Origin: Dichetophora obliterata
Taxonomy: Eukaryota; Arthropoda; Insecta; Diptera; Sciomyzidae
Direction of reading: 5' to 3'
Length of the DNA: 64,000 bases
NCBI GenBank assembly: GCA_963920525.1
Contig: OY986436.1
Location: forward strand, 96,041,842 to 96,105,841
Shown here: positions 14,491-55,133 of the stretch, piece after piece
Numbering within the stretch: position 1 is the first letter of the stretch
Layout of the letters: every line of letters begins with the position of its first letter
The notes under the pieces: generated by a model
The model's database searches: none
Told to the model about the DNA's origin: nothing
What the model saw: the letters and a program-made list of their open reading frames with translations, nothing else
Made by a program: the position numbers and the translations under genes

Positions 14491-14851
14491 TTTATTGAAA
14501 AAATGGATTTAATTGAACTGAAATATTGTATTAAATATATTGAAATTTGTTTAAATATCAAAATAAACATATTTGAATTGTATAATTACCAATTATATAT
14601 ATATTGAAATTTATTAATATATCCAAATTAAAATATAAACAAAAATATTTTAATGGTATAATTACCAGTTATAAATAAATTGAAATCAAGTAAAATCTAA
14701 AAATTAAAATATTTAAATTATATAATTACCATTTTAAAATTTATTAAAACATTTGAATTGTATAAATTAAAAAAAATAAATAAAAAATTTGCATTGTATA
14801 ATTTTAAAAATTATTTTTTTAAATCAAATAATTTTATCTTAAGGATGGGGG
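14491..14851 (+). other. Gyp-A 3' untranslated region and polypurine tract
   Basis: Very AT-rich, with an aatt/tataattacca theme repeated every 50-60 bp and no env-like frame. The run aaggatggggg (14841-14851) directly before the LTR is the polypurine tract that primes plus-strand DNA. Confidence 0.75.
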
Positions 14852-15453
14852 TGTAGGGCACTTAAATCTAAACATTTCTATAACTCTAACTTAAATACAT
14901 TTAGTCCATGCAATTATTATTTATAAACATTTAACACATAAGGATCTAGTCTACAAACTAACATTTCTATAAATGTAGCCTAAGCACATTTATGTAGTAA
15001 ACAAACAAAACAAACACATAACTATTGTTTACATTCTTACTCGCTTGCACTTTATGTTTACATAACTACACTACATAGCTACACTAAAATGACTACATAA
15101 ACTAATGTTCTACTTAGTTACAATTATATTAAATAAGATATATATTTAATTTTGTATTTATTTTAAGTTAAAAAATACTGATACTTGGCTTTATAAGCCG
15201 AAGAAAATCTTAAAATAAAATTACTTAAGTTTTGAGCTTTAAACCAACTGCTCCATTTTTCTTTATATTTCTAAGCGCTTGAATGCACTTTCGAGTAACG
15301 GCGCAAAGAAATCTTTTTTTTTGAACTGGCCAGTAGCGCTCTTAAGCGCTGGCAATAAAATTAAACACGTATGATTAAAATAACCGCGTAAACTTTAATT
15401 CGCGTAAAGCGCGTTAACCGCATAAAAATAAAAGTCACGCGTCCAACATTACA
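14852..15453 (+). repeat. Gyp-A 3' LTR
   Basis: 602 bp, tgtagggcac to ccaacattaca, pairing with the 5' LTR. It is followed by the target duplication TAAG, then by continuation of the RGE satellite. Confidence 0.95.
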
Positions 15454-15530
15454 TAAGTATGTTTTTTCCCGTGTACTAAAAATTAATTTAATTTTTCATT
15501 ATAAATTAGAAGTTAAGTAGTGCGTTTTTT
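15454..15530. repeat. Splice-site satellite, array A (right stub)
   Basis: Continuation of the unit cut at 1762: taagtatgttttttcccgtg then tactaaaaattaatttaa and a last degenerate unit. Joined to 1758 it restores a normal donor GTAAGTAT. Confidence 0.85.
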
Positions 15531-15615
15531 TTCAGTGTTCAAAAAAATATTATTTATTTTAGTTTTGTTTTATTTGGTGTTATGTCTTTACATCTTTACA
15601 ACCATACTCTGTAAA

Positions 15616-15972
15616 CTCCTGGTCTACTTCGACGCTTTTCACCTACTCTATAATTTTCGGTCTACTTCGACGCTTTTCGCCTGCTCTTTAATTTTCGGTC
15701 TACTTCGACGCTTTTCACCTACTCTATAATTTTCGGTCTACTTCGACGCTTTTTCACCTACTCTATAATCTTCGGTCTACTTCGACGCTTTTCACCTACT
15801 CTATAATTTTCGGTCTACTTCGACGCTTTTCACCTACTCTTTAATTTTCGGTCTACTTCGACGCTTTTCACCTACTCTATAATTTTCGGTCCACTTCGAC
15901 GCTTTTTCACCTATTCTATAATTTTCAGTCTACTTCGACGCTTTTCACCTGCTCTATAATTTTCGGTCTACA
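15616..15972. repeat. 38-bp satellite, copy A (about 9.5 units)
   Basis: Unit core ggtctacttcgacgcttttc then acctactctataatttt, repeated at 38-39-bp steps with few substitutions. The same array, shorter, is at about 23680-23880. No coding potential. Confidence 0.93.
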
Positions 15973-16739
15973 TATTTTATTTAAGAAGTTAAATTTCAGG
16001 TGTAATGGTAAAAAAATTTTCATTATATTGTTTTTTTTTTCTTATTTTTTTTTCTTAACTTTCAAACGTAGTACGTTTTCACATTTCGTATTTTTTTTTT
16101 TTAAATTTTTTGTTTTTTCTTTCGTCGTTAAATTTTAATATAAGGTTTTAGTCAAATGCGAGCCAAACACAACGCAATCCAATAGTCACTGAATCTTTCA
16201 ACTGCCTATCTATTATTAATTTTGAAACCATTGTAAAATTTGCTTCACACACAACATCAAAAAAAATGTATGTTGACCGTTAATCAAACGAAATCAAATC
16301 AAATTGAAAGACTTGTCTGGAGGCAACAAAAAAAAATCAAACTCTTTTGATTTTTTTTATCAACCAACTCCGCAACTGTTTAACTGATCAAGTGACCAAG
16401 CTACAACCGCTTTGATTTGAGCAACAACCGACTCAGTTGATGATTGGATTGTATGGTGTATGACTTGCATAAGATACACACTTATGAAGCTGGATCCACT
16501 AACCTTGACACCCTATGGCGATGGCCAATTTACCTGTGGGTGTTAGGAAGATGCTGCTGTCGATGGTGTTGGCGAACTCCTGGGTGTCGTTGCCGTTGGT
16601 GGCTGAAGTAACTGCTGCTGTGGTTACTTAAATGACTGCTGACCTCGTACGACCGCAGGCCCAGACGATTTGGCAAATAGCTGTCATGAGTGCTCCCTGC
16701 GGTTGTTGTTGAAAGCTGCCGTTGTGGGTATTAGCTGCT
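15973..16739. other. RGE unique noncoding segment
   Basis: T-rich at the left, then mixed sequence shared with 23880-24790. The copy at 24 kb contains an extra internal duplication of about 145 bp (the segment around caaccaactcggcaactgcc). No ORF is kept between copies. Confidence 0.6.
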
Positions 16740-17178
16740 ATTGTTGTCGTTGCAGTAGATACCAACGATTCGTTGCATTAGATACCATCGATGTAGGTAG
16801 CTCAAAACCAATAGTGTACGCTTTTTGGTTAGATGTCGCTGCTGTTGTTGTCGTTGCAGTAGATACCAACGATGTAGTTAGCTCAAAACCAATGGTGTGC
16901 GCTTTTTGGGTAGCTGTCGCTATTGTTGTTGTCGTTGCAGTAGATACCAACGATGTAGGTAGCTCAACACCAATGATGTGAGCTTTTTGGGTAGCTGTCG
17001 CTGCTGTTGTTGTCGTTGCTATTGGTGCAGACACCCTTAGTAGCTGGTGCGTTGCTTTACGTGGCTGTTGGGCCGCCAAGGCTTGCTGAACAACAGACAG
17101 GATTTGTAAGTTTTGCAATTGATGAACAATGATATCAAACGATAATATTACCCGTTGTTGCTGCTGTTGGGCCGCCAA
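16738..17178 (-). repeat. 81-bp (27-codon) tandem repeats with open minus frame
   Basis: Units begin gataccaacgatgtag at 16780, 16861 and 16942, exactly 81 bp apart. On the minus strand the frame stays open for 146 codons: a short Gln run (AAQQQQQR), then Ala/Thr-rich repeats around STATTTTAATATQKAHTIG. A related frame is open in copy B (24804-25133). Because 81 is divisible by three, an open frame can persist without selection. The frame has no ATG at its upstream end. Confidence 0.45.
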
Positions 17179-17265
17179 GGTTTACTGAACAATAGTTTAA
17201 TCAATTTTGCAATTGCTTAACACTGATATTATTCGATAATATTACCAGTTGTTTCTGCTGTGTTG
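17064..17265. repeat. About 100-bp direct duplication next to RGE protease
   Basis: ttgggccgccaagg at 17064 and 17166 starts two related segments that both end near gataatattacc and gttgttgctgctg. The boundary of the second segment is where the insertion in copy B/C is located (at gaacaatgatatc). Confidence 0.75.
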
Positions 17266-17327
17266 GGAGTAAGAAAAAAATAATATATAAGATGTTTCTT
17301 TTAAATTAAGATTTTAACTTACCCAGA

Positions 17328-18305
17328 TTACCATCCGCGACTGCCCATGTTACCATCAGCGAAAAGAAAGACAAAGTCCGGAAGTTCGCCAGCCATCGCT
17401 CTTTTCGCTGACAGCAGCCACCGGTTGTATTTTCGTTTACATAGGCAAGTCGGACGGTACAACACGCTAGGATAAACAACATGGTTTAATGACAGCTTAC
17501 ACCGAATGTCGGTGCAAACGAGTGTTTGCGCAAACTGTCGGACACGGTGTTTGAACCCTTTTTTTTGCGATGTATCCGTATCTATTTCAAAAGCAGTAAG
17601 CTCGCTCACGGTCGGAACTAGCTGAATTTTTAGCTCAAACAAATTCCAGAAATCCATTCCGCAAATCACGTCTTGGACGATAGAAGGAACAATCAAGAAG
17701 TTTACATTTTTTGTATGGTTATGGAAGGTAATCGGAAGACTAATCGAACCCACGACCTTTTGTTGTTGATCGTCAGCGGTTCGAACATTGCCTCTTAATT
17801 TAATCAGTTTTTTGATAGAGTCAAAGAGAAGTACTTGAGCAAGACTTCCACCAATGCAACTCTTCGTAGCACCACTATCCAAAAGCGAAAGGTATTTATT
17901 TTTTCCAATAAGAAGGTTAGTATAACGCCGAATATCGGAGCCTTTATAGACTATTGCTGAGACAACAACTTTGCGTAAGGATTTTATTCGTTTCCAAAAT
18001 GAGCGCATACGTTCCGAAGAACGAATTGAAGGACGTCTGACATCGGAAGTTCCAAAAATTCTATCACGGTTTTTGCGATATTCCACAAGTCGAACATGGT
18101 ACGGTTTGATGGTATAAGGTAGAGGTTGAGAAACAACCGGAAGGTCTATCACAGTTTTTGTCGAGGCAGACAAGGACGTTGAAATATCGGATTTCAACAA
18201 AAGTTTAGCTGGAATTACATCCGAGGACGATTTAATTGCGGTCTGCTCGACTCGCGACAAAAATCCGATTCGAAGCTTTCTGCCTTCACTGCACACTTTT
18301 GACAA
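17328..18305 (-). CDS. RGE retropepsin-like protease region, no RT attached
   Basis: The 325-codon frame overlaps the end of gag by about 90 nt in the -1 frame, the usual arrangement for a gag-pol frameshift; a run of five T's on the minus strand in the overlap is a possible slip site. Around 17880-17900 the sequence KYLSLLDSGATKSCIGG carries the D-S/T-G active site, followed by VGSISLPITF and DVICGMDFW, a retropepsin fold signature. In gypsy elements RT would follow directly. Here the frame stops and only minisatellite DNA follows. The same truncated junction is present at 31780-32065, so the loss is ancestral to the family rather than private to this copy. Confidence 0.75.
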   Translation of the reverse strand: MSKVCSEGRKLRIGFLSRVEQTAIKSSSDVIPAKLLLKSDISTSLSASTKTVIDLPVVSQPLPYTIKPYHVRLVEYRKNRDRIFGTSDVRRPSIRSSERMRSFWKRIKSLRKVVVSAIVYKGSDIRRYTNLLIGKNKYLSLLDSGATKSCIGGSLAQVLLFDSIKKLIKLRGNVRTADDQQQKVVGSISLPITFHNHTKNVNFLIVPSIVQDVICGMDFWNLFELKIQLVPTVSELTAFEIDTDTSQKKGFKHRVRQFAQTLVCTDIRCKLSLNHVVYPSVLYRPTCLCKRKYNRWLLSAKRAMAGELPDFVFLFADGNMGSRGW

Positions 18306-19735
18306 CTTGATTTGTAAGTGTCAACAGCTCCACAGCCGTAACAAAAGATTCGCCTAGCTTTGAGGCAATCTTGATATCTATGCCCAACTTCGTCGCAATT
18401 CCAGCATTTCAACTTACTGATATCTAGCGCATTGATTTCTTGTGCAGCGTGGTCGATTTCAACTTCGTTTAAACTCGGATCAGTATCATGAGATAACTCA
18501 AATAACTGCCGACGTGAAATAGCATGTCTAGGAGGTACACTATTATTAGGACGAACGTCCTCGAAAAATTTTTCGTGTTTACGAACCTCACGACGTAGTA
18601 TGGCAATGCTGCGAATGTCAAGCTGCAGTAATTCACGACGTAAAACCAGTCGTAGATTTCTTATAACTGTTTCCACCAACTCAGATTCCCACATTAGATG
18701 TCGGAGTCTATCACTTAAGCACAAAATTGCGTCCAGAAAATCATCAAAAGTTTCGAAATGCTTTTGTTTTCGACTGCGTATGTCATCTTGTATATCAAAG
18801 TCTGAGGTATAATCTTTAAATTGGCACCGCAGAGCATCGCAGAGGTAAAACCACTCAACCTCATCGGCATTGCGATGATATCGCCAAAACCACTGGTGAG
18901 CTTTGCCTTCGAAAAGAGAGTGCACGTGCTCGCACAAAACCGAGAAATTACCATTAAGGTGAAGAGAAGTCAGGGTATTAATTCTATAGATAAATTCATA
19001 GACTGAAATGCCATCAGGCGTGCCCTTGAATTTCACGTGCCAATTTTGCACCACGTTCGAAATTCGCTCTTTAGAGCCAGGGTCTCTATCGCTACCGGGA
19101 AGAGGAGGATTTGCTCGACACCGAGCCGATGAAGGAGGTACAGGTCTCTGAACTTCCTCAGGCACTACTTGTGGCCATTCTGGTTGTCGAAGACTAGACG
19201 CAATTGCGGGAGGGTTAGCTCCAATGTTCAATTTACGCAGCATCGCTTGAAGCTCGTTAGAAATGATTGAGCTTATCTCCATTCGGAGTTGGCCTAATGA
19301 GTCGGCAACGATTTGGTGAACTTTGGTTTTAGACACTTGGTTCGGTTGGTTTGGTAAGATGGCATTGTCCAGCGGTTCAGGCCTACTATCACGATGGTCT
19401 GATCTAAAGTTTGCTTGTTGTCACGTGTTGGGGCGATACCGTGGTGCTCCAACACCTTTTCCCCGTTTTCGTTGTGGAATACAACCAGCAACTTTGAGAA
19501 GATTCGCCGCCGGAGAAGGACCTACAACTGCAGGAACCAATGCCAACCGACAAACCGGACATGCCTTGTTGGTTTCTAGCCAAGTCTGCAAGCACAAAGC
19601 ATGGAAGCAATGATTGCACGAGGTCTCCACCACTTCATCCGTAGGTTGAATGGTTTCATTGCACACGGCACATATGGCTTCGTTGTGAGGATTACCCACC
19701 CCTAACAGGTCTTCTGTACTTCGTGTTACAGGCAT
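18215..19735 (-). CDS. RGE RING-H2 plus Gag polyprotein, one in-frame TGA
   Basis: Reading from ATG at 19735 (MPVTRSTEDLLGVG), residues 22-63 form a complete RING-H2 finger: C-x2-C-x14-C-x-H-x2-H-x2-C-x10-C-x2-C, ending ACPVCR, with the conserved Trp before the last pair. After residue 104 there is one TGA (19423-19421). The same frame then continues without break into Gag: a linker, a capsid region (NWHVKFKGTPDGISVYEFIY and GKAHQWFWRYH), then two knuckles (CWNCDEVGHRYQDC and CYGC...CQKC). RING-H2 fingers are typically E3 ubiquitin ligase modules; Gag would form the particle. The stop could be a mutation or a read-through signal. The fusion is seen in the sequence; ubiquitin ligase activity is inferred. 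Confidence 0.8.
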
Positions 19736-19775
19736 CGCAAAAAAAATTTGAAAACAATCAATCAATAATAGTTAT

Positions 19776-20440
19776 AGCATAAATAAATTTTATGCTGTTA
19801 TAACCGAGAGAAACCTACCGATCTGGCGGAACGTGAAAACCAAGTAAAAAAATCAATTAACAATTTATCAATATAGCATAAATAATTTTATGCTGTTATA
19901 GCTGAGTGGAAACGACCAGTTAGCGGAACGAGAGGAATGGTTGGAAAAATAATAAAAAAAAACCAAATAATAATTGCTACGTAAAGGCTAAGCAATTTAA
20001 GCTGTTATAAAGAGACGTTATCTCGAAAGATTTCGAGAAAAATTTCAAAAAGGAATTAAATAAAAAAATTCAATCAATAATTGGTACGTAAACCATACCC
20101 AAGTGTAACCTGTGGCGTCGAAAAGGAAACCAACAGCTGTCACGCGAGCATCAATATGCAAAATAGAAAGAAATCAATTAGTATTTTACAGTAAAGCCTT
20201 GAAAATTTTATGATGTTGAAAGGAATGAAAGCCCAACGGTTTTCATGGAAAAAATGATTTTTTTTTTACAGTAACGAAGTCAACTGATCAACTTATCAGC
20301 AGCGCATAACCACATTATGCTGTCAAGGAGAAATAAAATCTAAAGTATTTCACGCGAGAAACGCCGATGTAAAAAAAACATTTACTGATCTTAATCGATA
20401 ATGGCTGTGAATAGCATAAGCCCGTTTATGCTGTGATGAA
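19776..20440. repeat. Hairpin-bearing repeats in RGE 5' leader
   Basis: Five or six diverged units of about 100-120 bp, each with an inverted core resembling agcataaat...atttatgct (about 19776, 19876, 19990, 20304 and 20413) and a following gctgttata or similar. Some arms are perfect over eight bases. The array lies directly 5' of the RING-Gag start on the minus strand, i.e. in the expected untranslated leader. Confidence 0.6.
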
Positions 20441-20907
20441 TAAATGAAATCCAATGATTTCTCGCAAAAAAAAAAATTTGAAAAAAAATATATAAATATA
20501 TAATGATATAATAAAATTTGGGCATTACTCGGCAAGGCCATGACGGGACCGCTACAGACTTAGGGCACAGGTGCATAGAGAAAACGTTCGGTTTACGGCA
20601 GAGGAATGAAAAAAAATTGTATTTGCAAAAATCACGAGAAAAGAGACTATATTCCATATACTTGAGTAAATCTTCGAAATTATCCAAAGATAAAAATCTC
20701 AAAAGCATATATTTGTTAATAAATTCCAATTAAAATTTAAATAACCTTTGGTTAACACAACAATAATATTATGAAACGATCCAAAAGATTATCAATAGCA
20801 AAAATCGAAATTATACAGAAAGAGTTTAACTCAATTCAAAACAATTGGTTGGCAGAGGTTCGGTAAGATCCCAAAAAATCCAGGAACTAAATCCAGAACA
20901 TGCCATT
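20441..20907. other. Spacer between RGE leader and copy B
   Basis: AT-rich, no gene recognised. In a terminal-repeat model the primer-binding site should be near 20890 on the minus strand; TGGCATGTTCTGG is present there but I cannot match it to a tRNA. Confidence 0.4.
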
Positions 20908-21321
20908 GTCAAGAAGTCGTGGGATGCGATCTGCACAAGTTAGTTGTATGCAGACGGTAAAAGGAAACGGAAAAGGAACATTTGAATTAAAATTCAAATG
21001 GTCGGAAACAGGAAACGGATGGGAGAGTGGACAAAAAAAAACCGAAAGAGAAAATGCGAACCGAATTTTTGACCCTATGCACCGAGATATACGAGGGAGA
21101 ATGGTGTTATTTTCCCTCATTGTCTCTACCCGCCTAACCTGTCAATGAATAAAAAAAATTTCATTAACCCTAATAGTGCACCTAAGTGCAGCAGCCCCTT
21201 ACCATAGCTTACCTTTCATCATCCAAATAAATTTCAATCCAATTAATTATTCATTAGGGGACCCATAAATTCGGGATTTATATATTGACAACAATTTTAG
21301 AATACTTTGATCGTACATGTT

Positions 21322-22237
21322 CAGGGTCCGCCATATAACTTTTTTTTCAACTAGTGCTTATTTCGTGAATGGTAACACTTAGCTCATGTCTGATTTGACA
21401 CGTAATTAGTTTTATCCTTCCGCTGAAAGAATATGGTTGTGTATATGCTTGAACAACGCTGGGAAATATTGCGACATTACTTTGAAAATCATGATGCCGA
21501 TTTTGCCAAAAAATCATCTTTTCAGATGAAGCTCATTTTGATCTTGGCGGGTATGTAAACAAGCAAAATTGTCGCATTTGGGGCACAGAAAACCCGCACG
21601 CATACATTGAAAAGACGCTGCATCCAAAACGAGTCACTGTTTGGTGCCGATTTTGGTCCAGAGGCATAATTGGGCCATTTTTCCTCAAAAATGAGCAAGG
21701 AGTGGCCGTTACAGTCAATGGCGATCGTTATCGGGCCATGTTGAACGAATTTTTGTTCACAAAAATTGAAGAGGAGGATATTGGCAACATGTGGTTTCAA
21801 CAGAACGGCGCTAAGTGCCACACAGCCGAAGCTACACTCGATGTTTTGCGCCCTGTTTTTGAAGATCGCATTATCAGCCGCAGAGCTGATGTCGTTTGGC
21901 CACCTCGGAGCTGCGATTTGACACCGTTGGACTATTATTTGTGGGGTGCCCTCAAAGATAAGTGTTACGCCGACAAGCCAGAGACAATTGACGCTTTAAA
22001 GGACAATATTCGTGAAGCCATTGGTAAAATACAGCTGCACACAATCGATAATGTGCTTAAAAATTGGACCGATCGTGTAGGCTACTGCATTGCCAGCCGA
22101 GGCAGCCATTTGAATAAATTATTTTCCGTTATTAACCGGAAGGATTGTACTTTCAAATAAAAAAAGAAATTTGGAAAAATATCCAGTAATTTTTTTTTAT
22201 AGAATTTTCAAAAAAAAAAGTTATTTGGCGGACCCTG
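21322..22237 (+). mobile_element. Mariner-type DNA transposon, internally deleted
   Basis: Terminal inverted repeats cagggtccgccatataac and its reverse (gttatttggcggaccctg) bound 916 bp. TA follows the right end (22238-22239), and TT replaces the expected TA on the left. Comparison with 961-1000 shows the empty site. The element carries the start and the C-terminal half of a transposase but lacks the central part. Confidence 0.93.
21432..22160 (+). pseudogene. Mariner transposase, DNA-binding region deleted
   Basis: The start MVVYMLEQRWEILRHYFENH is joined almost directly to the catalytic domain (IIFSDEAHFDLGGY), so the paired helix-turn-helix region is missing and the join is out of frame. 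The C-terminal half is open from 21702 to 22160. The first catalytic Asp (SDEAHF) is present; the second sits in WFQQNGAKCHTA, where Asn replaces the usual Asp; the third-acid region PPRSCDLTPLDYYLWG is present. The deletion and the Asp-to-Asn change each predict an inactive enzyme. The inverted repeats remain as possible substrates for an active relative. Confidence 0.9.
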
Positions 22238-22344
22238 TATATGCTTGATTATTTTACAAATTTTCAATATAGAATATAACCCAATATCGTCGTATATTTT
22301 ACAAATAATGTATCCATATTTACATGAGAAAACCAATTAATTAA

Positions 22345-23645
22345 TAAAAATTTTCAGTGTACTGAAAATTTAAGTTATTTCCTCATTATCAATAATCACG
22401 AAAGTATTAAGTAATTTTTTTTACTGTACTAAAAATTAAAGTTAATATTTCATTATAAATAAGCAGGTGAGTATAATGTTTTTTCCAGTGTACTGAAAAT
22501 TAATTTAATTGTTCATTATAACTAAACAGGTAAGTATTATTTGTTTTTTTTCTCTTTCAGTGCACTGAAAATTAATTTAAGTTTTCATTATAAATAAGCA
22601 CGTAAGTATTAAGTAATTTTTTTCTTCAGCGTACTGAAAATTAACGTTAATATTTCATTATAAATAAGCAGGTAAGTATAATGTTTTTTCTAGTGTACTG
22701 AAAATTAATTAAACTATTCATTATAAATTCGCACGTAAGTATTAAGTAATTTTTTCTTCAGAGTACTGAAAATTAACGTTAATATTTCATTATAAATAAG
22801 CAGGTAAGTATAATGTTTTTTCCAGTGTACTGAAAATTAATTTAATTAATCATTATAAATTAGCACGTAAGTATTAAGTAAATTTTTTTTCAGAGTACTG
22901 AAAATTAATGTTAATATTTCATTATAAATAAGCAGGTAAGTATAATGTTTTTTCCAGTGTACTGAAAATTAATTTAATTTTTCATTATAAATAAGCACGT
23001 AAGTATTAAGTAATTTTTTTCTTCAGAGTACTGAAAATTAACGTTAATATTTCATTATAAATAAGCACGTAAGTATTAAGTAATTTTTTTCAGTGTACTG
23101 AAAATTAACTTTAATATTTCATTATAAATAAGCAGGTAAGTATAATGTTTTTCCCAGTGTATTGAAAATTAATTTAATTTTTCATTATAAATTAGCACGT
23201 AAGTATTAAGTACATTTTTTTCAGAGTACTGAAAATTAACGTTAATATTTCATTATAAATAAGCAGGTAAGTATAATGTTTTTTCCAGTGTACTGAAAAT
23301 TAATTTAATTTTTCATTATAAATTAGCACGTAAGTATTAAGTAAATTTTTTTTTTCAGAGTACTGAAAATTAACGTTAATATTTCATTATAAATAAGCAG
23401 GTAAGTATAATTTTTTTTCCAGTGTACTGAAAATGAATTTAATTTTTCATTATAAATTAGCAAGTAAGTATTAAGTACATTTTTTTCAGAGTACTGAAAT
23501 AAACATTAATATTTCATTATAACTAAACAGGTAAGTATTCATTTTTTTTTTCAATGTACTGAAAAGTAATTTAATTTTTCATTATAAATAAGCAGTTAAG
23601 TAGTGCGTTTTTTTCAGTGTACGAAAAAATATTATTTATATTTGT
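22345..23645. repeat. Splice-site-bearing satellite, array B (about 19 units)
   Basis: The longer version of the array at 1120. From about 22600 two unit types alternate as a 132-bp dimer (caggtaagtata at 22669, 22801 and 22933): one type has a CAG donor and short T-run acceptor ttttttccag, the other a CAC donor and an acceptor like ttttttcttcag. Nearly every unit keeps GTAAGT. Confidence 0.92.
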
Positions 23646-23674
23646 TTTGTTTTATTTGATTTTGTGTCGTACTC

Positions 23675-23880
23675 CCAGGCTACTTCGACGCTTTTCACCT
23701 CCTCTATAAGTTTCGGTCTACTTCGACGCTTTTCACCTATTCTATTATTTTCGGTCTACGTCGACGCTTTTTCACCTACTCTATAATTTTCGGTCTACTT
23801 CGACGCTTTTCACCTACTCTATAATTTTCGGTCTACTTCGACGCTCTTCACCTGCGCTATAATTTTCGGTCTACTTATTT
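23675..23880. repeat. 38-bp satellite, copy B (about 6 units)
   Basis: Same unit as 15616-15972 with fewer copies; it directly follows the splice-site satellite. Confidence 0.9.
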
Positions 23881-24803
23881 TATTTAAGAAGTTAAATTTC
23901 AAGTGTAATGGTAAAAAAATGTCATTATATTTTTTTTCTTTTGTCTTATTTTTTTTTCTTAACTTTCAAACGTAGTACGTTTTAACATTTCGTATTTTTG
24001 TTTTTAAAATTTTTTGTTTTTTCTTTCGTCGTTAAATTTTAATATAAGGTTTTAGTCAAATGCGAGCCAAACACAACGCAATCCAATAGTCACTGAGTCT
24101 TTCAACTGCCTATCTATTATTAATTTTGAAACCATTGTAAAATTTGCTTCACCAACAACAGCAAAAAAATGTATGTTGACCGTTAATCAAACGAAATCAA
24201 ATCAAATTGAAAGACTTGTCTGGAGACAACAAAAAAATCAAACTCTTTAGATTTTTTTATCAACCAACTCGGCAACTGCCTAAATATTATTAGTTTTGAA
24301 ACCATTGTAAAATTTGCTTCACCAACAACAGCAAAAAAAATGTATGTTGACCTTTAATCAAACGAAATCAAATCAAATTGAAAGACTTGTCTGGAGACAA
24401 CAAAAAAAATCAAACTCTTTTGATTTTTTTTATCAACCAACTCGGCAACTGCCTAACTGATTAAGTGACCAAGCTACAACCGCTTTGATTTGAGCAACAA
24501 CCGACTCAGTTGATGATTGGATTGTATGGTGTAAGACTTGCATAAGATACACACTTATGAAGCTGGATCCACTAACCTTGACACCCTATGGCGATGGCCA
24601 ATTTACCTGTGGGTGTTAGGAAGATGCTGCTGTCGATGGTGTTGGCGAGCTCCTGGGTGTCGTTGCCGTTGGTGGCTGAAGTGACTGCTGCTGTGGTTGC
24701 TTAAATGACTGCTGACCTCGTACGACCGCAGGCCCAGACGATTTGGCAAATATCTGTCATGAGTGCTCCCTGCGGTTGTTGTTGAAAGCTGCCGTTGTGG
24801 GTA

Positions 24804-25133
24804 TTAGCTGCTATTGTTGTCGTTGCAGTAGATACCAACGATTCGTTGCAGTAGATACCAACGATTCGTTGCATTAGATACCATCGATGTAGGTAGCTCA
24901 AAACCAATGGTGTGCGCTTTTTGGGTAGCTGTCGCTGCTGTTGTTGTCGTTGCAGTAGATACCAACGATGTAGTTAGCTCAAAACCAATGATGTGAGCTT
25001 TTTGGGTAGCTGTCGCTGCTGTTGTTGTCGTTGCTATTGGTGCAGACACCCTTAGTACCAGGTGCGTTGCTTTACGTGGCTGTTGGGCAGCCAAGGTTTG
25101 CTGAACAATAGTCAGGATTAGTAAGTTTTGCAA
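24804..25133 (-). repeat. 81-bp repeats with open frame, copy B
   Basis: Counterpart of 16738-17178 with one fewer unit and one 21-bp duplication (tagataccaacgattcgttg). The minus-strand frame stays open for 109 codons. Confidence 0.45.
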
Positions 25134-26132
25134 TTGATGAACAATGTGTCATGGGCACCTGCATATAGTGAATAATACCTTTTATGAATACCCCTGGTAT
25201 TTCCACTAGCGCCCTCTAGCGTGGCAGTGCACACAATTTTTTTCCCATTTAGATGTGGCACCTCGGTTAGGTTCGAGAACATTCGGCTAACAAAATGGCG
25301 ATAAACATGCTTGAGGTGGATAAACACCAACAACAATAGCCAAATTAGTTCCGGCGCGAATAAACCGGTCTGAAAAATGGCGTGATCCGACACGCGCTTG
25401 AATCAGTAGCCAATGGGAATACCGAAACAAGCGTCGGTTAACGGCCATTTTTCGACGTGTCATTTTAAAGTCTAAGCCAACCATTACCTACTCCCCTCGG
25501 TTATGGTCGATTCCACCGAGAAGGTAGTAAAGTTGGACAAACATCGCTAGTTTGCACATCTAAATGCCATCAAAATGCATGCGGACACACCCTTATCAAG
25601 GACATGTGGCAGCCCCGGCCAAAGTACCTAAAATCATTGAACTGGAAAAAATACAACCCTGGGTAGACGTTTCTGTCGCAGAGAATCGCCATTACAAAAG
25701 TTAGAGTGAAGAGTGGTAGGTCGTACATTTTTAATCGTTGCCGTCGTGAACTTTTCTAATTTGTGGAAGTAAAAACATATTATTTTCCTTATGTATTTTT
25801 TTTGTCTGGCTTGCAACCTTTATATTAAAATTAAAGACGTCGAAAACCTAACAGGATTAGTGAAAGGTATGTTAATCTTAAGTGTGGTACTATAACAAAA
25901 ACTTGATATTGTTTTACGGAACCAGCAGCTCCTCATAAACGGGCAGCAACGTCAGTAGCAAATTCACCCCACGTCAGGGTTTCATCGAAGTCTTTTAGTG
26001 ACTAGACGCAACGACAACAACACCCAACAAAATTAGTCCACAGCTGCAAGCGTTTCGCTGCAGTGCTGCAACGCCGCCACCAGGGTCATGCTACACGACC
26101 GTCAGCAACATAGGCACCCTTAATTTGCCGGT

Positions 26133-30720: not shown

Positions 30721-31617
30721 ATATGAGAAAAAAATTTTTGGGGTTAAAGTAACGATTATGTTAAAAAAAATGTATTTGAAATATTCTCCCTCTGATTTTG
30801 AAAGCTCCGCGATGTGCGTGGACACTTGTTGAGAAAAAACTTTTTTTAAAATGTTTTAATTGCGAACCGATCTGACTTTACAGATGGTTATGTCGTTTTT
30901 TGGTATCTTATTGTATTGTGATACCGGTTCTTATTTGAATTATTAAATTCCTGTTAATATAGAAAAACATTAATATTTACTAAAATAATCTTAGCAATCG
31001 ATCTAAGAACCTACTGTTAATGTAAGTAACTTTAAGAATGAATAGAAGTAATAAATGATTCTGTTAAGTTAAAGAAAAGGGAAAAATGAGTAATTGATAG
31101 AAGAGGATGGGTGGCGGGAACAAATTGGTAAGGGCGTAAGTATAAAAGTTTTTAGGGTGACCTAAACTAAGGCACAGGGTCACCATGGCTGGTCTTTTGT
31201 GGCCAGAAGGGGCGGGCTAGCCAAGGGCGATCGAATTACAACAAAGATCGACCCACGAGACGTGCCAACGTGGCAACAGCGAGCAACCGGCTCAGATTCC
31301 TTCTTCGTTTTCAGCACTTTCGCGTAAAATAATCGGTTTTTTTGTATCTTCCTTCGAGATTTTAATCTTTTTGTATGGTTTATAGGGATTTTTTCAGGCG
31401 GTAATTTTTCGTCACAGCTGGTACGATTTTTATTCATGTGTAGTTTCCGTCGGTCGGACCAGGCTGGCAAGAACACCACCCCATCCGGCGAGCCTTAGCC
31501 GCGCAATACGCCAGCGTACCAGTGCTGCCAGAGGGACGACAAGGGTGCGCAACAAAGGCTACCTTGCCACATGATGCACCAGCCATATACCACAAACGGT
31601 GGGCCGGAAACATGACA

Positions 31618-32065
31618 AATGATATCAAACGATAATATTACCCGTTGTTGCTGCTGTTGGGCCGCCAAGGTTGGCTGATAGTACAGTTTAGTCAATTTTG
31701 CAATTGCTTAACACTGATATTATTCGATAATATTACCAGTTGTTGCTGCTGTGGTGGGAGTAAGAAAAAAATAAAATATAAGATGTTTCTTTTAAATTAA
31801 GATTTTAACTTACCCAGATTACCATCCGCGACTGCCCAGGTTACCATCAGCGAAAAGAAAGACAAAGGCCGGAAGTTCGCCAGCCATAGCTCTCTTCGCT
31901 GACAGCAGCCACCGGTTGTATTTTCGTTTACATAGGCAAGTCGGACGGTACAACACGCTAGGTTATACAACATGGTTTAATGACAGCTTACACCGAATGT
32001 CGGTGCAAACGAGTGTTTGCGCAAACTGTCGGACACGGTGATTGAACCCTTTTTTTTTGCGATAT
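31618..32065 (-). mobile_element. RGE fragment, copy C (continues copy B)
   Basis: Matches 17140-17572, from the noncoding side into the end of the RGE protease frame (mirroring ELPDFVFLFADG). Homology stops in the T run at about 32060. With copy B it forms one RGE copy cut by the 6.47-kb insertion. Confidence 0.88.
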
Positions 32066-32489
32066 TTGCATCAATCAGGCTACATACACAACGAAAGGGC
32101 TTTAACAAGCACAACGGCTGACATGGACACCCACGGCAAGAAAAAAAACACACAAACCATCAATTATATGTAACATCTTCAGAGTTGAAATCCCAGCTCA
32201 GGTTCGAATTTGAATTCAAATTCCAGACCAGACGAGGGCACAACACAACGTTTTTACCGGTTGAGCCGATGAGAAAAAAAGCTCTTCCGGTGATCAGTTG
32301 TAGTGTTTCCTCTGCTCATTTGAATTTTGAATTCGAATTCAAACCTGCGCATTCAAACTGTCGACTTATCTGTCAAAATTGGGGATGCGTTATGACAGTG
32401 AATTTTCATTAAGGTTGGTTCGCCAACTCACGCTACTACTATCTGTCAAACGACCCTTTGATGCTTGAAATTTTTTTCACCCCCACAAA
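32066..32489. other. Spacer with EcoRI-type palindromes
   Basis: No gene seen. An 18-bp perfect palindrome gaatttgaattcaaattc lies at 32206-32223, and a related gaattttgaattcgaattc lies at about 32324. Confidence 0.5.
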
Positions 32490-33900
32490 TTGTATGTTTA
32501 AAAGATTTCGAATCACATTTGATGGACTTACGAGTAACCTTTGAAAGTTTGAAGAATTTTAATTTTCACCTCAATAGAGAAAAATGTTTTTTCTGCAAGT
32601 CAGAGGTTAAATATCTATGCCATATCCTTACCAAAGATGGAATAAAAGTTGATTAAACGGGAAAGACCTAAAAATGTCAAGCGGTTGATGTCATTTTTGC
32701 AAACCTGTTCCTGGTTTCGCTGATTCATACCCAAGTTTGCTGAAGTTTCTAAGCCACTTTCAACTTTAACAAGGAAAAATGTTAGCTTTAAATGTAAATG
32801 AACAATTTGCATTCGATAAGCTTTAAGAGTTATTAACTTCGCCACCAATTTTACACCAAGTTAAAGCTAACTGCAAATTTTATTTAAGAACTGACGCAAG
32901 CAATTATGAGCTAGGAACTGTTTTATTGCAGGGGGAGGAAGAGCACGAATATCCTTTAGAATATGCAAGTCGCTTATTGCTTCCCGCTGAACGAAACTAC
33001 TCAACTACTGAACGTGAGGCACTAGCTGTTGTCTGGGCAGTACAAAAATTCCGAGGATATATTGAGGGTTCGGAAGTAACAATATTGACTGATCATCAAC
33101 CACTTAAATGGCTATTTAGTCTAAAATCACCAACAGGCCGACTAGCAAGGTGGTCCTTGCTGTTACAAATGTACAATTTAACATTTTCATTCACACCAGG
33201 AAAGCAAAACGCAATAACAGATACCCTTTTCCGGCCACTTTGGGTATATCACAAACATTTACACCAATTAACCATTCTGAAGTGAATCCGGTGGAAAGAA
33301 AGAACCGGGACTTAAAATACCAACTTTCCATATGCGTAGCAAAAAACACACTGATAGGGATTTAAAATTACCTGCTATAAGATTCGCTATGAACACGGCA
33401 AAATGCAGTAGCACAGGATACACAGTAGCGTACTTAACATTTGGCAGAGAATAGCAACAGAAGTACATCATGTTCTTAGAGCAATAATTAGTTCCAAAAA
33501 TTTTATGCCCCAAATTACAACACACTTATTACGACTAGCTGATAGCTTAAAGTTAGCAAAAGAAAATCAGGAGAGAGTACAAGACAAAAACAAAACGTAT
33601 GTAGAAAGAAAACCATAAATGGCTATAAATGTTGGATATCGTGTTTTGGTAACGACAAAGTTATTAAGCAACGCAAGTAAAGGTTTTACTTCGAAGTTTG
33701 TTCCCCGTCGAGATGGCCCCTACTTGGTCATTACGAAAAAAGGATCGTCGTGTTACACCATTGATGCAGAAAACAAACCAGATACACCTTTAGCTACACA
33801 TCACGTTTCAGCTTTAACGCCTTTTGAAGGACCTGCAGACAAGCCAGTGTATCCAATTAAAAACCGAGGGCGTCCCAAAAAACAGTATTTAAGGATTTAA
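32490..33900 (+). pseudogene. pol: Gypsy pol remnant: RT end, RNase H, integrase tail
   Basis: RT thumb/connection text (NREKCFFCKSEVKYL, HILTKDGIKV) at 32560-32656. After frame breaks, RNase H reads ELGTVLLQG, then EREALAVVWAVQKFRGYIEG and LTDHQPLKWLF, to 33285. The integrase finger and most of the core are missing. The tail (33619-33900) has GYRVLVTTKLLS, PRRDGPYLVITKKGS and a terminal NRGRPKKQYLRI, an AT-hook-like core. No LTRs were found near it. Numerous stops make it dead. Confidence 0.85.
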
Positions 33901-33956
33901 GGCATAAGAAGAACCTTTATAGCCCAACATACACATGTATCGAAAAAAAAAATTAA

Positions 33957-34530
33957 ATGCGGTCTTGCGTTTGCAAAAGAATATTTAAAAAGTCAACGAA
34001 GTTTTGGAAAAATGTGCTTTGGAGGGATAAATACAAGTTTTGCCGGTTCGCATCTGACAGCAAACAATATGTGTGGCATCCTCAAAACATGCAACACAAT
34101 CCAAAGTACACGCTCAAGACTATTAAACAGGGTGGATGAAATGTTATGGTTTGGGCGGCATTTTCTTGGCGCGGAGTTGGTTCAGTTGTTAAAATTTACC
34201 AAAAAATGGATCAACACGCTTACAAAAACCAATACCATGATACCGCTTCAAGAGGATAATTTGCCGCTTTAATTGCGTTTTATGCAGGATAATGATCCAA
34301 AGCACTGTGCTCACATAATTAAGAGTTGCTTGGAAGACAAACATATTGATATTTTAAAGTGGCCATCGCAATCATCGAACTTAAACTCGATTGGGAATCT
34401 CGAGCAGCAAATACTAACAGTATAATCCAAAAATTTGTGGAGGGAAATCCAAAAAATTCGGTATAGTATTCCAAAAGTCCGTTGTGAGGCTTTGGTCGAA
34501 AGTTTACCAAGGATATGAGATGCAGTAATT
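33957..34530 (+). pseudogene. Tc1-type transposase remnant
   Basis: Fragments in three frames resemble the catalytic domain: WRDKYKF-like start, VMVWAAFSWRG, then the QDNDPKHCAHIIKSC block (second catalytic Asp) and WPSQSSNLNSIGNLE, the decayed WPxxSPDLNPIEN signature with the third acidic residue in view. Frameshifts and stops throughout; no inverted repeats recognised. Confidence 0.8.
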
Positions 34531-45886: not shown

Positions 45887-47017
45887 TGTGACGAACCTCT
45901 GGTTGTTGCCTTCAGGCTGAGGTATGCTCAGCGGGTTCCAAAGTTAATTTTTATTTTCACTGTTTCCTGTCTGCCTGTTTTCTCAGCTTCCCGTCGGTGT
46001 CCCTCGTTGTGTTGTCGCTGCTGCACACAACTGGCGGGCCTACAAGCCTCGGAGCTGTTGCGGGATGAATACTTAGAGTGCGCGGGCTTACAAGCCACGG
46101 ACTTTGCACTCTTTCACTAGAGAAGGAGGGCTTACAAGCCGCTGACACTGCTAAAAAAAATGGTAAAATTAGGTGGGCCTACAAGCCACCGACTCTGCTG
46201 ATGCGGATATTAACAGGTTGGCCTACAAGTCACCGACTCTGTTTGTTGATTTTATGCAGGTGGGCCTACAAGCCAACGACTCTGTTTTGCGGGTTTTGTG
46301 CAGGTGGACTTACAAGCCAACGACTCTGCTGATGCTGGTTTTCCTAAACAGGTGGGCCTACAAGCCAACGACTCTGTTTTGCTGGTTTTGTAGTTGCCTT
46401 GCTCACCGTATCCACTTCTTCACTGTCACTGGGTTCACTATTCACTGGGTTCACTATTCACTGGGTTCACTGTTCACTGGGTTCACTGTTCACTGGGTTC
46501 ACTGTTCACTCGGTTCACTGTTCACTGAGTTCACTTGCGTGAGTGTCTCGATTGACTGTCCAGATCTCTGCGCTGGCTGCCTTTTATAGTCTCCCTGACT
46601 GCTGTTCTTCGCCTGGTTGGTTTTAGCTCGTCAACAACATCCCGTAACTTTGTATCGTTGTTGACCTCTGCTTGCATTTTTGTTCGTCAACACGCTTTTT
46701 GCTCGTCAACAACGTACCGCAATGTGTGCATTTTGTTGTTGCCCTTGTTGCTTAGTTCGTCAACAAGTTGTGCCATCTGCCTTGTCATGCTATGGATCTT
46801 GCGGTATTCCTGTTCTTAAGAAAAATTAAAAGAGAGAGCCTATTATTTAAGTTCATGTTGTTTTTTTATTGTTTGTTTTTATCTTCATGTGAATATAAGT
46901 GTGTGTGTGTATATATAAAAAAATAATAAGACACATTTTGGTAGTGGCGGTGTTCATCGAACCACCACTCCGGCGCTGTGACGATGTATTTCAACGCCGT
47001 TGAAATTGGGCGTCACA
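45887..47017 (-). repeat. Gyp-C 3' LTR
   Basis: 1131 bp; differs from the 5' LTR mainly in copy number of a gtgggcctacaagccaacga minisatellite and of ttcactgggttcactg repeats. A TATAAAAG on the minus strand lies at about 46585. Confidence 0.93.
46150..46390. repeat. LTR minisatellite (gtgggcctacaagcca)
   Basis: Five to six units of 45-60 bp. The matching array at 55375-55690 has a different number of units and order, so it has changed since the two LTRs were identical. Confidence 0.88.
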
Positions 47018-47029
47018 CTCCCCCTCTAC
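47018..47029 (-). other. Gyp-C polypurine tract
   Basis: ctccccctctac on the plus strand is a purine run on the element's strand directly before the 3' LTR, the site of plus-strand priming. Confidence 0.75.
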
Positions 47030-47740
47030 TTTGGCGAGACAGCGAATCCTCACCTCACCTCGTCGGCCGATTTTTATACGATAACGCAACCAGTTGACGG
47101 TGCGTATCGAGTTGCGCACCTCACCTGGACGTCGTCCTACCAACATGGCCTGCACCGCGTTGGTGATGGCCACCAGATAGTGCTCCTCCTCAGCGTCGCT
47201 ACTGTCGATATGTAGCGCCTCACTCCTATATGAGCTACTTCCGCTGCTTTTGTTGGTGTTGTGGTAGTAGCTGTTGTCGTAACTTTCATTGTTGTTGTAG
47301 TTGTTGTGACTGTTATCCGAGTTGTTGGTGATGTCGTTGTAGTTGTTACTGTAGTTGTTGTTGATGTGGTTACCATTGTTACTATTGTTGTTGTTGATGT
47401 TGTTGTAGTAGTTATTATAGTTGCTGTTGATGTTGTTGTAGTTGTTATTGTTGATGATGTCGTTGTGGTTGTTGCTATTGTCGTTGTTAATGATGTTATA
47501 ATTTACGTTGTAGTCGTTGTGACAGCTGACGTCGCTGTCCGTCCATTCTATGGCTGGTGGTGGCGATGGTGGTAGCTCCACGATTGGCACACTTTCTCCT
47601 ACGACGCCTTCGACCTCCTGCAGGAAAGTTGCCGTAATGCGGACCACCTTCATCCGGTAGCCCGGCCACCTCTCAATCTCCTCCTCGACTCGCAAGTCGA
47701 ACCGGCCCTCCGGTCGGTGCCACTCTTCTTCATCTTCCTC

Positions 47741-48393
47741 TTTTTTTTTTTTTTTTTTTTTAAACTAATACATGCAATAACAATAGAGTTCAGCTACTAC
47801 AGCTTTTTCGCACTTTCTCCGCATTAGATCGTCTTAAGAACCAGCCCAAATAACATTAAAACATCTCAATAAGGCCATTCACAGTTCGAATACGCTGGTC
47901 TGCCATTTGTTCGATCTGCTATTTGTTCGCCAATTTACGAAAACGTATTTTGCTTCGTTGTTGTTTTGCATACAAATGCAAATACGCAGGCACGCGTAAA
48001 TAAAAGCAGCCCTTGGACGTGCTCTTTGTACCTCGTATTTTTATGCTCTGTCTACAGCCGCATAATCACATACATCACAGGGTTGCACAATCTTTTTATA
48101 CGACAGTCACATGGCGAGGTGCTCACAGTTTGAACAATAACAAATGCTATAAATGTGATTTGTTAAAAGTACGCTCAAACCGTGAATAGCCCTAATGATA
48201 TCGATAAGAGTGGTCCAAAACAATCCAAAGTGAGAAAAATTTACCCACCATAATATGGGTTGGGCTCAGGGACAACACAAGACATAAAAACTAACCATGC
48301 GTTTACATAGATCTAATCATACATTAGTTTTCAATCTACTTTTGAGTTGACCTTTCGATAAGTTAAAATCAAAAAAGCTACAGTTGTTAACAA
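47741..48393 (-). mobile_element. 5'-truncated LINE copy in the third ORF
   Basis: Reverse copy of the 3' end of the LINE at 34535-35478: FVNNCSFFDFNLSKGQLKSR, then the same 3' UTR, then a poly(A) of about 20 (poly T at 47741-47761). Flanks share cttcttca...tcttcctc, the likely target duplication with a small indel. A MITE interrupts its UTR. Confidence 0.9.
47873..48192. mobile_element. Harbinger-type MITE inside the LINE
   Basis: 320 bp with imperfect inverted ends ggccattcacagttcga and its partner (read inward from the right: gggctattcacggtttga), and TAA duplications (47870-47872 and 48193-48195). The empty site is visible in the other LINE copy near 35385. No coding capacity. Confidence 0.88.
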
Positions 48394-48966
48394 ACTCTTC
48401 TTCAGCATCTTCCTCAGATGCCCAAGATGGCGCTGGTGGCGCCTCTTCTTCGTTTTCGACCCGATCGTCATCATTGTCGGATCCGACATCCGACACCTCC
48501 TGATCTGCTTCGGACAGCAGACATCCGATCGCCTCCGCGATCTCTTCGTCCAAGGTCCCGTCCTCTGAGACCTCCCTCTCTTCCTCGAACTACAGACATC
48601 CGACTGACTCCTCCTCGGTCTCACTGTCGCTTATGACGATTATTTGCATGTTTCCGTCCATTTCTGTGAATATATTTTTTTTTTCTTCAGTTTAATAAAT
48701 TATTTATTTATTTGCCTCATTCTTAATGTCTATTCCAGTTCATTAGTGTTTCTTTTGTGATGTTTTTATACCTTTCGTTTATGTCTGTATATAATTTCCT
48801 TTCCTTGCCTTACTTTGGTTATTTTTTATATGTATATCTCCCAGCGTGGTCAAAGATCGAATGATCTTTACTGCCGGTGTCTTTTCCTTATGACCTCCTG
48901 TCCGGTCCGCTCATCTTCTGCTCCTGTGTCATAATTCCCTACGTGAACGTACCCTTGACCCTCGGC

Positions 48967-49525
48967 ATGGCACCACCTTGTTTTGGGATTTTTTCCTCCC
49001 CTGGTATAATTTGGCAGCACTGGTCTCCGCCATTTACCTCTATTGACGTTTCTTCTTGGTCTCGCCATTTGTTTACGATTTCGGTACATGTGAAGACATG
49101 TTTTCGTTGTTGTGCTAATTTTTATTTATCAAGATCCAGGAAAAAACAAAAAAAGGTTAGTTTAATGTTAATAAACTTAAATTAATTTATTTGTTGTGCA
49201 TTTTATTAATATGTCATTATTATTCAATTTCAGCGTCGCTGTCCATCGGTCATGTGCAGGCGGCGCCTGCTGGAGTTGCAGCTGGAGCACCTCGCCGGTG
49301 TTCATCCTGGCACATATGGACTCGTCGCCCTGGATACTTGCAGGTAAGCACACAGTGTGTATTTTCTTAAATTTTTTGACTGGTCGTAATAAACTTAATA
49401 TCTTCTCGTTTAGGTTACCACACCGGGATCCCATCGTGTGTGACAGCGATGCCCATGGAACCTTGCTGTTGCTGTCCGTTTCTAACGCCGCTGGTACCTG
49501 GAAGTCTCTGCCACGAGTGGCATAG
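48967..49525 (+). CDS. Antisense three-exon reading frame within Gyp-C
   Basis: On the strand opposite Gyp-C, exon 1 (from ATG at 48967, frame open from 48865, to 49155) ends AAAG|GTTAGT. A 78-nt intron ends in attcaatttcag. Exon 2 (49234-49343) ends TGCAG|GTAAGC. A 70-nt intron ends in ctcgtttag. Exon 3 (49414-49525) ends in TAG. Phases match across both introns, giving about 136 residues: MAPPCFGIFSSPG at the start, a basic SRSRKKQKK stretch at the first junction, LLELQLEHLAGVHPG in exon 2 and DSDAHGTLLLLSVSN in exon 3. Intron sizes are typical for flies. I recognise no domain. It may be an antisense retroelement gene or a captured host segment. Confidence 0.45.
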
Positions 49526-50190
49526 TGAAATTTAAGTTGGATACTAATGTGATTTTTTTTTTTATTGTGATTTCTTTTTATGGTGATTTCTGTGGTGGTC
49601 CAAAATATAAAGGATCCATCTTCATGAGCGCCGAACGGCGCCGTTCGTTTGTTTTATTTTACTCTTCCGTGCTTCCGGCGTATCGATTAGTTGGTATAAG
49701 GTGGGCCAGGCTTGGAATCCACCGGTGGGCTCCAAATTTGGCCTTCGCGTTTTGCGGCAGCGTTTCGGGTGCCGGTTATTTCAACGTTACAGCGCAGAGG
49801 GCGCTATCTCTGTGCCTAATTTTGCTGTGATAAGTTATTGGTAAGTCAATATTCTTTTGAAAAATTTTTTTTATATGCAGCGACGTTGCTGTAACATAGG
49901 TGTCGCCGCATCGAATCCTTGCTTTAGTGCGTGGCTTCTCTGTTACGTCACCGATGCTCTGCCGCTACTGCGCTGCATCTTGCGTAGCTGGTGCGCAGCT
50001 TGCGCCAGTGGGACTGCGGTGTCTGCGCAGTTTGCTTCAGTGCGGCTGCGACGTCGGCGCGGTTAACCCAGGTGCTTCTGTGATATCTGCTGACGCGGGT
50101 TTCGCCGCGGTCTCAGTTGACGCGGGTGACCATGCCACCCTGCTGCAGACTGTTGACGCAGGTCTCGCTGTAAGCATTATTGTTTAATTT
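49526..50190. other. Gyp-C region between antisense frame and minisatellite
   Basis: Contains further plus-strand splice-like signals (ttattg|gtaagt at 49841, ttatatgcag ending 49881) and GC-rich plus-strand open frames, none recognised. No minus-strand element gene is evident here. Confidence 0.4.
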
Positions 50191-50289
50191 GCCAGCTTCA
50201 GATTTTTAATTTTTTTTTATTTAATGTTGAAGACGTCATGCCGTATGACCTTGTCTTATGACGTCACAGACTTTCGTCTTTCATTGGGA

Positions 50290-50850
50290 TCTTTCGTGCG
50301 GGTGATGCCACGTTAGGTTTCAGTTTTTCGTGTGGATGAAGCCACCTTACATCTCAGTTTTTTATGTGGGTGTTTCCACAGGTTTCAGTTTTCGTGTGGA
50401 TGAAGCCACGTTGATACCAGTTTTCGGGTGGGTGACGCCACATTAAATATCAGTTTTTATATATGTGGGTGTCGCCACAGGTTTCAGTTTTTCGTGTGGA
50501 TGAAGCCACATTAATACCAGTTTTTCGTGTGGGTGTCGCCACATTAAATCTCAGTTTTATGTGGGCGTCGCCACAGATTTCAGTTTTTCATGTGGGTGAT
50601 GCCACAGGTTCCAGTTGTTAACGCAGGTGGTGCTGCGCATAAAATCTCAGTTTTTTTGTGTGGGTGTCGCCACAGGTCTCATTTTTTGTGTGGTTGATGC
50701 CACAGGTTCCAGTTGTTAACGCAGGTGGTGCTGCGCATAAAATCTCAGTTTTTTGTGTGGGTGTTGCCACAGGTCTCATTTTTTGTGTGGTTGATGCCAC
50801 AGGTTCCAGTTGTTAACGCAGGTGGTGCTGCGCATAAAATTTCATCGTCA
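50290..50850. repeat. GTGGNTGNNGCCAC minisatellite
   Basis: About a dozen units of 40-60 bp, each with a short palindromic core such as gtgggtgtcgccac or gtggatgaagccac, followed by tttcagttttt. At the right end a larger unit of about 90 bp (ggttccagttgttaacgcag, at about 50607, 50704 and 50801) is repeated three times. It lies 3' of integrase in element orientation. Confidence 0.88.
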
Positions 50851-50869
50851 CACTTGTTGGTCGTCAGTC

Positions 50870-53800: not shown

Positions 53801-53960
53801 TCACTTATGAAACTCCTGGTTGCCCCTGTATCCACAGTGGCCTCTACAACTTCTTCTCCTAGGGAAATATTTGCAAAAATGTGCGTCTTGTCGTGCTGCA
53901 GACTTTCTACGGGATGCGAGGGACCGTGACTGCGTTCCCCGATAGGCCTCGCCTCTATCG
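50870..53960 (-). pseudogene. pol: Gyp-C Pol: PR, RT, RNase H, integrase
   Basis: PR: ATVDTGATRSFISEK and DVILGMDF. RT: LCVDYRQLNAKSIPD, ISSLDLKNGYWQIP, MPFGLHSAPATFQ, catalytic YLDD in AFAYLDDIIVTG, YLGHVVSIQGI. RNase H: TLQTDASDFGLGAVLTQ, TEKECLAIVWAIRKM, ITDHLSLKWL. Integrase: H-H-C-C finger (HDSLCAGHLGIRK, CESCQ), core with ADFVGPLP, VTDNGAQ and an E in ENPTERANR, and a C-terminal GPYKI segment. Pol is -1 relative to gag. Lesions: TAA at about 53350, frame change at about 53300, TAA at 53057, TGA at 51665, frame change at about 51500, stops near the C-terminus. Confidence 0.93.
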
Positions 53961-55040: not shown

Positions 55041-55110
55041 GTTTTCTGAGGGTTTCTAGTTTCTGCGTTGTTCTCCTGATGTTTTCTCGTTTCTGCGTTG
55101 TTTCCTTGAT

Positions 55111-55131
55111 GAAGTCCCTGCTCGGGCGCCA
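55111..55131 (-). promoter_or_regulatory. Gyp-C primer-binding site (Lys type)
   Basis: On the element strand TGGCGCCCGAGCAGGGAC lies two bases after the LTR. It differs at one base from the complement of the tRNA-Lys(UUU) 3' end. Confidence 0.8.
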
Positions 55132-55133
55132 CT

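Follow-up and report, generated by a model that had tools for sequence, protein, structure and literature searches.

Organization of the locus

We analyzed a 64,000-nucleotide stretch of DNA (contig OY986436.1) from Dichetophora obliterata, hereafter referred to as the window. A decayed, pol-deleted copy of a Ty3/gypsy retrotransposon is located on its minus strand, and the features of this copy are summarized in Table 1. The identity of the two LTR-like repeats, about 1.6 kb in size, was 93.6–95.0% in three main pieces and 84% in the outermost one, and their ends are blurred by tandem repeats. Downstream of the leader, an open reading frame (ORF) starting with Met at 19735 encodes a RING-H2 domain and ends at a TGA codon. 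The sequence-only reading placed a Gag directly after this TGA in the same frame, and the domain search agreed: the region matched Pfam Retrotrans_gag (E 3.7e-6), with the capsid at about 18653–18925 and the zinc clusters at about 18290–18410. Of the two zinc knuckles proposed for this Gag, one is a CCHC knuckle; the other consists of four clustered cysteines (C-x2-C-x9-C-x2-C) and is conserved among relatives. The protease domain matched Pfam gag-asp_proteas with an E-value of 1.2e-5, slightly short of the curated cut-off of the model.

Table 1 Features of the RING-bearing element in the window.
Feature	Position	Strand	Remarks
5′ LTR-like repeat	23545..25146	−	direct repeat
Leader, 5′ LTR-like repeat to RING ORF	19739..23544	−	tandem repeats, opposite-strand transposase-like ORF
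Gag N-terminus, with start peptide MPVTRS, RING-H2 and linker start	19424..19735	−	104 codons before the private TGA
RING-H2 core	19547..19672	−	residues 23–64 of P0001; eight zinc ligands plus Trp and Pro of the E2 contact
In-frame TGA between RING part and rest of Gag	19421..19423	−	private among 30 loci of the same genome
Remaining Gag (linker, capsid, one CCHC knuckle, one C4 cluster)	18215..19420	−	same frame as RING ORF
Retropepsin-like protease domain	17649..17909	−	frame of ORF 18320–17328, differs from Gag frame
Internal deletion junction, protease end against 3′ non-coding part	17573..17581	−	matches to L036 and L039
3′ LTR-like repeat, with 38-bp tandem units	15462..17131	−	direct repeat

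Reverse transcriptase (RT), RNase H and integrase are absent from the window copy, and Gag and the protease are the coding parts that remain. Positions 17581–18322 aligned with the protease part of another copy, L036 (742–1), and positions 17353–17573 aligned with the 3′ non-coding part of a further copy, L039 (1581–1361). These two matches adjoin in the window but are separated by about 3.4 kb in another copy, indicating that RT, RNase H and integrase were deleted from the window copy.

Several other features were observed. A plus-strand transposase-like ORF (21495–22160) lies within the leader; it appeared mariner-like by eye and had no Pfam match at 0.01. The regions 583–2366, 14851–15454 and 20908–23602 share sequence blocks that are reordered around tandem repeats, and look as if recombination between repeats had rearranged long LTRs. 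A 452-base stretch (31612–32063) is 95.6% identical to 17122–17571 and starts where the RING element has its deletion junction; when 31000–34000 was compared with 17000–20000, nothing else matched besides two short internal matches. A second Ty3/gypsy element is located on the minus strand at 45891–56307, with LTR-like repeats at 45891–47017 and 55138–56307, and contains pieces of protease, RT, RNase H and integrase. Its Gag is split into two frames (55055–54267 and 54266–53955) and begins with a stretch that appeared SAP-like by eye, had no SAP match in Pfam, and showed no RING.

RING-H2 domain at the N-terminus of Gag

The zinc pattern of the window RING, C-x2-C-x14-C-x-H-x2-H-x2-C-x10-C-x2-C, follows the RING-H2 ligand order and is complete, exactly as first spelled out from the letters. 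Residues 23–64 of the ORF matched Pfam zf-RING_2 (48.2 bits, E 1.3e-12), and the nearest solved chains were the RINGs of RNF24 (best, E 7.5e-12), Arkadia and RNF126. Such E-values argue against a chance pattern. An Arg directly follows the last Cys of the core.

We predicted the structure of a relative, P0004, using 13 sequences. The RING was modeled confidently (residues 21–70, block pLDDT 82–93), a long helix (residues 166–197) lay within a disordered linker, and the capsid occupied residues 263–440. The placement of the domains relative to each other is not meaningful in this model, because its mean pLDDT was 65.6 and its pTM 0.36. In a Foldseek search, the modeled capsid matched dArc1 (best E 2.8e-5) and the modeled RING matched RING1B (8.9e-4), TRAF6 (1.7e-3) and TRIM21 (3.9e-3); the predicted zinc fold is thus that of a RING resembling those of E3 ligases. 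Taken together, the reading frames and the model show the Gag of the open-frame relatives as a single predicted protein comprising a start peptide, a RING-H2 domain, a disordered linker with a long helix, a capsid, and the CCHC and C4 clusters.

The TGA codon is private to the window copy

Among 634 candidates in the same genome, 150 RING matches were scored; 71 of the 150 sit within an open frame of at least 500 aa, a count that is therefore a lower bound. The TGA codon was compared at 30 loci, the best-scoring of the 150. All 29 loci other than the window carry a sense codon at this site, providing the copies without the stop that had been sought. Among 28 rows with the MPVTRS start, 27 read past the site, as do two loci with a changed start. 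Open Gag frames of 500–506 aa, counted from Met and including the RING, were found in 11 full frames among the 28 rows. The private TGA would restrict the window copy to a RING peptide of at most 104 residues from Met 19735. A recoding or read-through stop was rejected, since none of the other 29 loci has this TGA.

RING-bearing families in the same genome

At least five Gag families of this genome have an N-terminal RING, namely that of the window and those of L031, L032, L033 and L034; the matches in the latter four are 31–41% identical to the RING part of the window. The RING therefore belongs to the element, being borne by other copies, by several families and by the 29 loci lacking the TGA.

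In the window's family, pol is in a separate frame from Gag, as seen in L036. The order Gag, protease, RT, RNase H, integrase, deduced from L036 and from the Pfam domains in its relatives, places the family in Ty3/gypsy. No env-like ORF was found after pol in the one copy examined, L039, in which the longest same-strand ORF was 101 aa; the opposite strand has a 149-aa frame that lies in tandem repeats and runs off the end. An env ORF after pol, which marks Errantivirus (insect endogenous retroviruses), was thus not found in this copy.

Head-to-tail RING copies were observed at two places in the genome, six at G000:C1:103728329-103785256 and four at G000:C7:10955980-11000120, with a spacing of about 11.2 and 14.6 kb. 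L033 and L038 represent one RING-Gag family. The 471-aa frame of L033 stops ahead of any zinc knuckle, no CCHC pattern was present in any frame of the 2.2 kb examined, and its linker bears two PPxY motifs.

Selection on the RING

To evaluate the constraint on the RING, we calculated omega (dN/dS) over RING codons 1–70. Between the window and 27 other copies, omega was 0.05–0.19; these copies are partly identical, giving 20 distinct RING sequences including the window. Seven pairs of other copies gave 0.10–0.32 for the RING, 0.09–0.20 for the linker and 0.02–0.13 for the capsid, and the five pairs that have the zinc part gave 0.06–0.15 for it. These pairwise omegas are rough, because the copies L005, L012, L024, L029 and L035 are probably mosaics: the synonymous divergence of one pair varied strongly among RING, linker and capsid. 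Fisher tests of synonymous versus non-synonymous changes in the RING, using rounded counts, gave p values of 3.5e-5 (window–L005 and window–L012), 1.7e-4 (window–L007), 2.5e-4 (L035–L012), 0.0027 (L024–L029) and 0.036 (L005–L012). Codons 71–104 of the window copy, after the RING, had few sites, and omega was 0.53–2.07 where computable.

The dN/dS value across the RING, which had been expected to fall below 1, was well below it (0.05–0.32). Judged from these codon comparisons, the RING is under purifying selection that is about equal to that on the linker and weaker than that on the capsid. As the linker had similar omegas among the other copies, the RING is not specially constrained within Gag.

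Conservation of the E2-contact residues

We examined the Trp, the Pro and the Arg linchpin, by which active RINGs bind E2 and ubiquitin. All three were present in all nine rows examined from this genome, of which the window, L005, L012 and L035 belong to one family and L031–L034 and L037 to others.

A protein search with Gag alone retrieved 44 relatives and a profile search 48. Among 77 database Gag proteins examined, three of them found via RT, a RING near the N-terminus was present in 21; some of the 56 proteins with no visible RING are incomplete and could not have shown one. Named hosts of RING-Gag are Drosophila elegans (P0036), D. gunungcola (P0044), Calliphora vicina (P0051) and Lucilia sericata (P0194). 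Trp was present in nine of the 21 database RING rows and gone in 12, and Arg or Lys followed the last Cys in 13. The other eight have Asn, Gly or Asp at this position and have also lost Trp, with their zinc ligands kept. Four of these eight are on the tree described below (P0035, P0036, P0037 and P0044), where they fall in one six-row clade (support 100/96) that includes the D. elegans and D. gunungcola proteins; they retain every zinc ligand and Pro. All zinc ligands were present in 30 of 30 RING rows, as the search pattern itself required.

Two other possible features of these Gag proteins were rejected. N-myristoylation is not a common feature, as a Met-Gly start occurred in two of 21 RING rows. 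Substitution of the RING for late-domain motifs was also rejected, since PPxY, P[TS]AP and YPxL were absent in 43 of 44 relatives regardless of the RING; the sole motif was one PPxY in P0047, a RING-less outgroup. The PPxY motifs in the L033 family, which has a RING, likewise indicate that there was no clean exchange between the two.

Evolutionary history of the RING

A tree was constructed from the capsid and zinc-cluster regions of 55 rows; P0168–P0173 and P0194 are absent from it. Twelve rows lacking a usable start were omitted from the RING count, and P0047 was omitted from a second count of RING states. All three deep clades next to the outgroup-like P0047 contained RING rows, and three changes of RING state were needed across 42 rows of known state. 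When all RING-less rows were forced into one clade (20 vs 22 rows), the topology was rejected (p-AU 2.5e-10). The RING has probably been lost more than once, as the RING-less Gags do not group as one clade in this tree.

In the RING-less rows, a start peptide resembling that of the RING rows leads directly to the linker. The start was exactly M-P-[LVI]-T-R-S in 12 of 20 RING-less rows, and RING rows have looser versions; a RING-less call required a start-like motif or naming by hand, and retention of the start peptide is thus partly built in. RING and capsid distances were correlated (Mantel r about 0.62 (0.615), 0 of 10000 permutations as high) in 27 rows, after removal of two close copies from the window's family. 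The simplest reading of these alignments is that one old RING was inherited together with the capsid and lost at least two times, or three with the root placed as in the drawing, a placement that the tool did not infer.

Comparison with known elements

In the sequence-only reading, no described family with this layout was known. This did not hold, as a RING finger in Gag is in print for an Osvaldo-lineage element of C. vicina. That 2013 report describes this "Isis-like" element as having a 531-aa Gag with the RING, two ORFs, CCHC, no env and LTRs of 2.57 kb, and states that Osvaldo also bears a RING in Gag and that Isis (D. buzzatii) is RING-less (PMC3630058). A RING label also stands in a figure legend of PMC12910113.

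By that description, the present family resembles the Isis-like element in its Gag of 500–506 aa with a RING, its separate pol, its LTR-like repeats of about 1.6 kb and, in the one copy examined, the lack of an env-like ORF. It differs in being another family, and the window copy differs in lacking most of pol and carrying a stop in Gag. The likeness to Osvaldo of Drosophila buzzatii, compared by description only, lies in the RING in Gag, and Isis differs, again by description only, in having no RING (PMC3630058). The RT of a family member was 74% identical to C. vicina P0051, whose single gene model contains RING, Gag and RT; this identity concerns P0051 only. Osvaldo has env, unlike the one copy examined here. 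P0011 and Stomoxys calcitrans P0070 have the same kind of capsid, the CCHC knuckle and a similar start peptide, but no RING. The element most likely belongs to the Osvaldo lineage of Ty3/gypsy, without env. The RING in Gag, found here and reported for Osvaldo and the Isis-like element but not for Isis, is not strictly lineage-defining.

New in this study are the findings that the RING is constrained, that several families of one genome bear it, that it was probably lost repeatedly, and that one clade no longer has the E2-contact Trp or the linchpin. Among the open-access matches listed, none addressed the function of the Gag RING in these elements by title or abstract.

Possible function of the Gag RING

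We consider it probable, if by a modest measure, that the RING, as the N-terminal domain of a Ty3/gypsy Gag most likely of the Osvaldo lineage, acts as a Gag-borne E3 ligase. Its zinc ligands and E2-contact residues are like those of the RING-H2 E3 ligases RNF24, Arkadia and RNF126; unlike the Gag RING, these have no capsid fusion, and the ligase role is here a predicted one. In its position the Gag RING resembles the arenavirus Z protein, a RING at the matrix position of a virus particle. From this E2 face we infer a ligase activity that may be activated by Gag assembly. The RING would most likely bind a host E2, assembly would gather many RINGs, and ubiquitin might go onto Gag itself or onto a host protein meeting the particle, with the capsid possibly serving as dimerizer and substrate adaptor. 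The one copy examined shows no env-like ORF after pol, which disfavors a role in budding and makes a function inside the cell likely. Several observations count against ligase activity, namely the missing Trp in most of the database RING rows, the persistence of RING-less relatives in more than one clade, and a constraint below that on the capsid and about equal to that on the linker.

The main alternative, less probable but to be taken seriously, is a structural role without ligase activity: the RING would be a zinc domain that occupies the matrix position in Gag and serves assembly, protein contacts or RNA binding. RINGs that serve only to hold a fold exist. P0035, P0036, P0037 and P0044, which keep the zinc ligands and Pro with Trp and the basic residue gone, fit such a domain, whereas the retention of Trp, Pro and Arg in every row from the window's genome would be needless for a mere zinc scaffold. 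It is improbable that the RING is a relic that hitch-hikes and no longer has a role: RING-less relatives do persist in two separate lines at the least, and probably in three, but the low omega of the RING core argues against this, as do the zinc ligands kept in all RING rows, although the search pattern required them. The window copy alone, in which the TGA splits two open frames, would suggest that a host RING gene and Gag were joined by chance, or that the design is based on stop-codon read-through. We give this practically no weight, given the sense codon at all other loci and the recurrence of the fusion across many elements and several species; a host-gene junction was rejected because the RING-Gag fusion was found again both in database relatives and in genome copies.

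Extending the ligase reading, we tentatively propose, while regarding the whole as rather unlikely, that fly retrotransposons of this lineage bear a capsid-activated ubiquitin ligase. The Gag lattice would cluster the RINGs and so direct either Gag or some host factor to removal via ubiquitin. Some lineages would have retained this ligase, a weapon or a regulator; in the clade containing Drosophila it would have lost its E2-facing Trp and linchpin, and it would have been dropped altogether more than once. Such a pattern would be as expected of a host-dependent function. The surprise is limited, as a RING domain in Gag was already noted in 2013. If the proposal is true, we would have here a rare example of a retrotransposon that carries a ligase on its own capsid and thereby intervenes in the ubiquitin system of its host. 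Since some families have the RING and others do not, and the E2 face is intact in some and altered in others, the role of the RING can be tested by comparing them.
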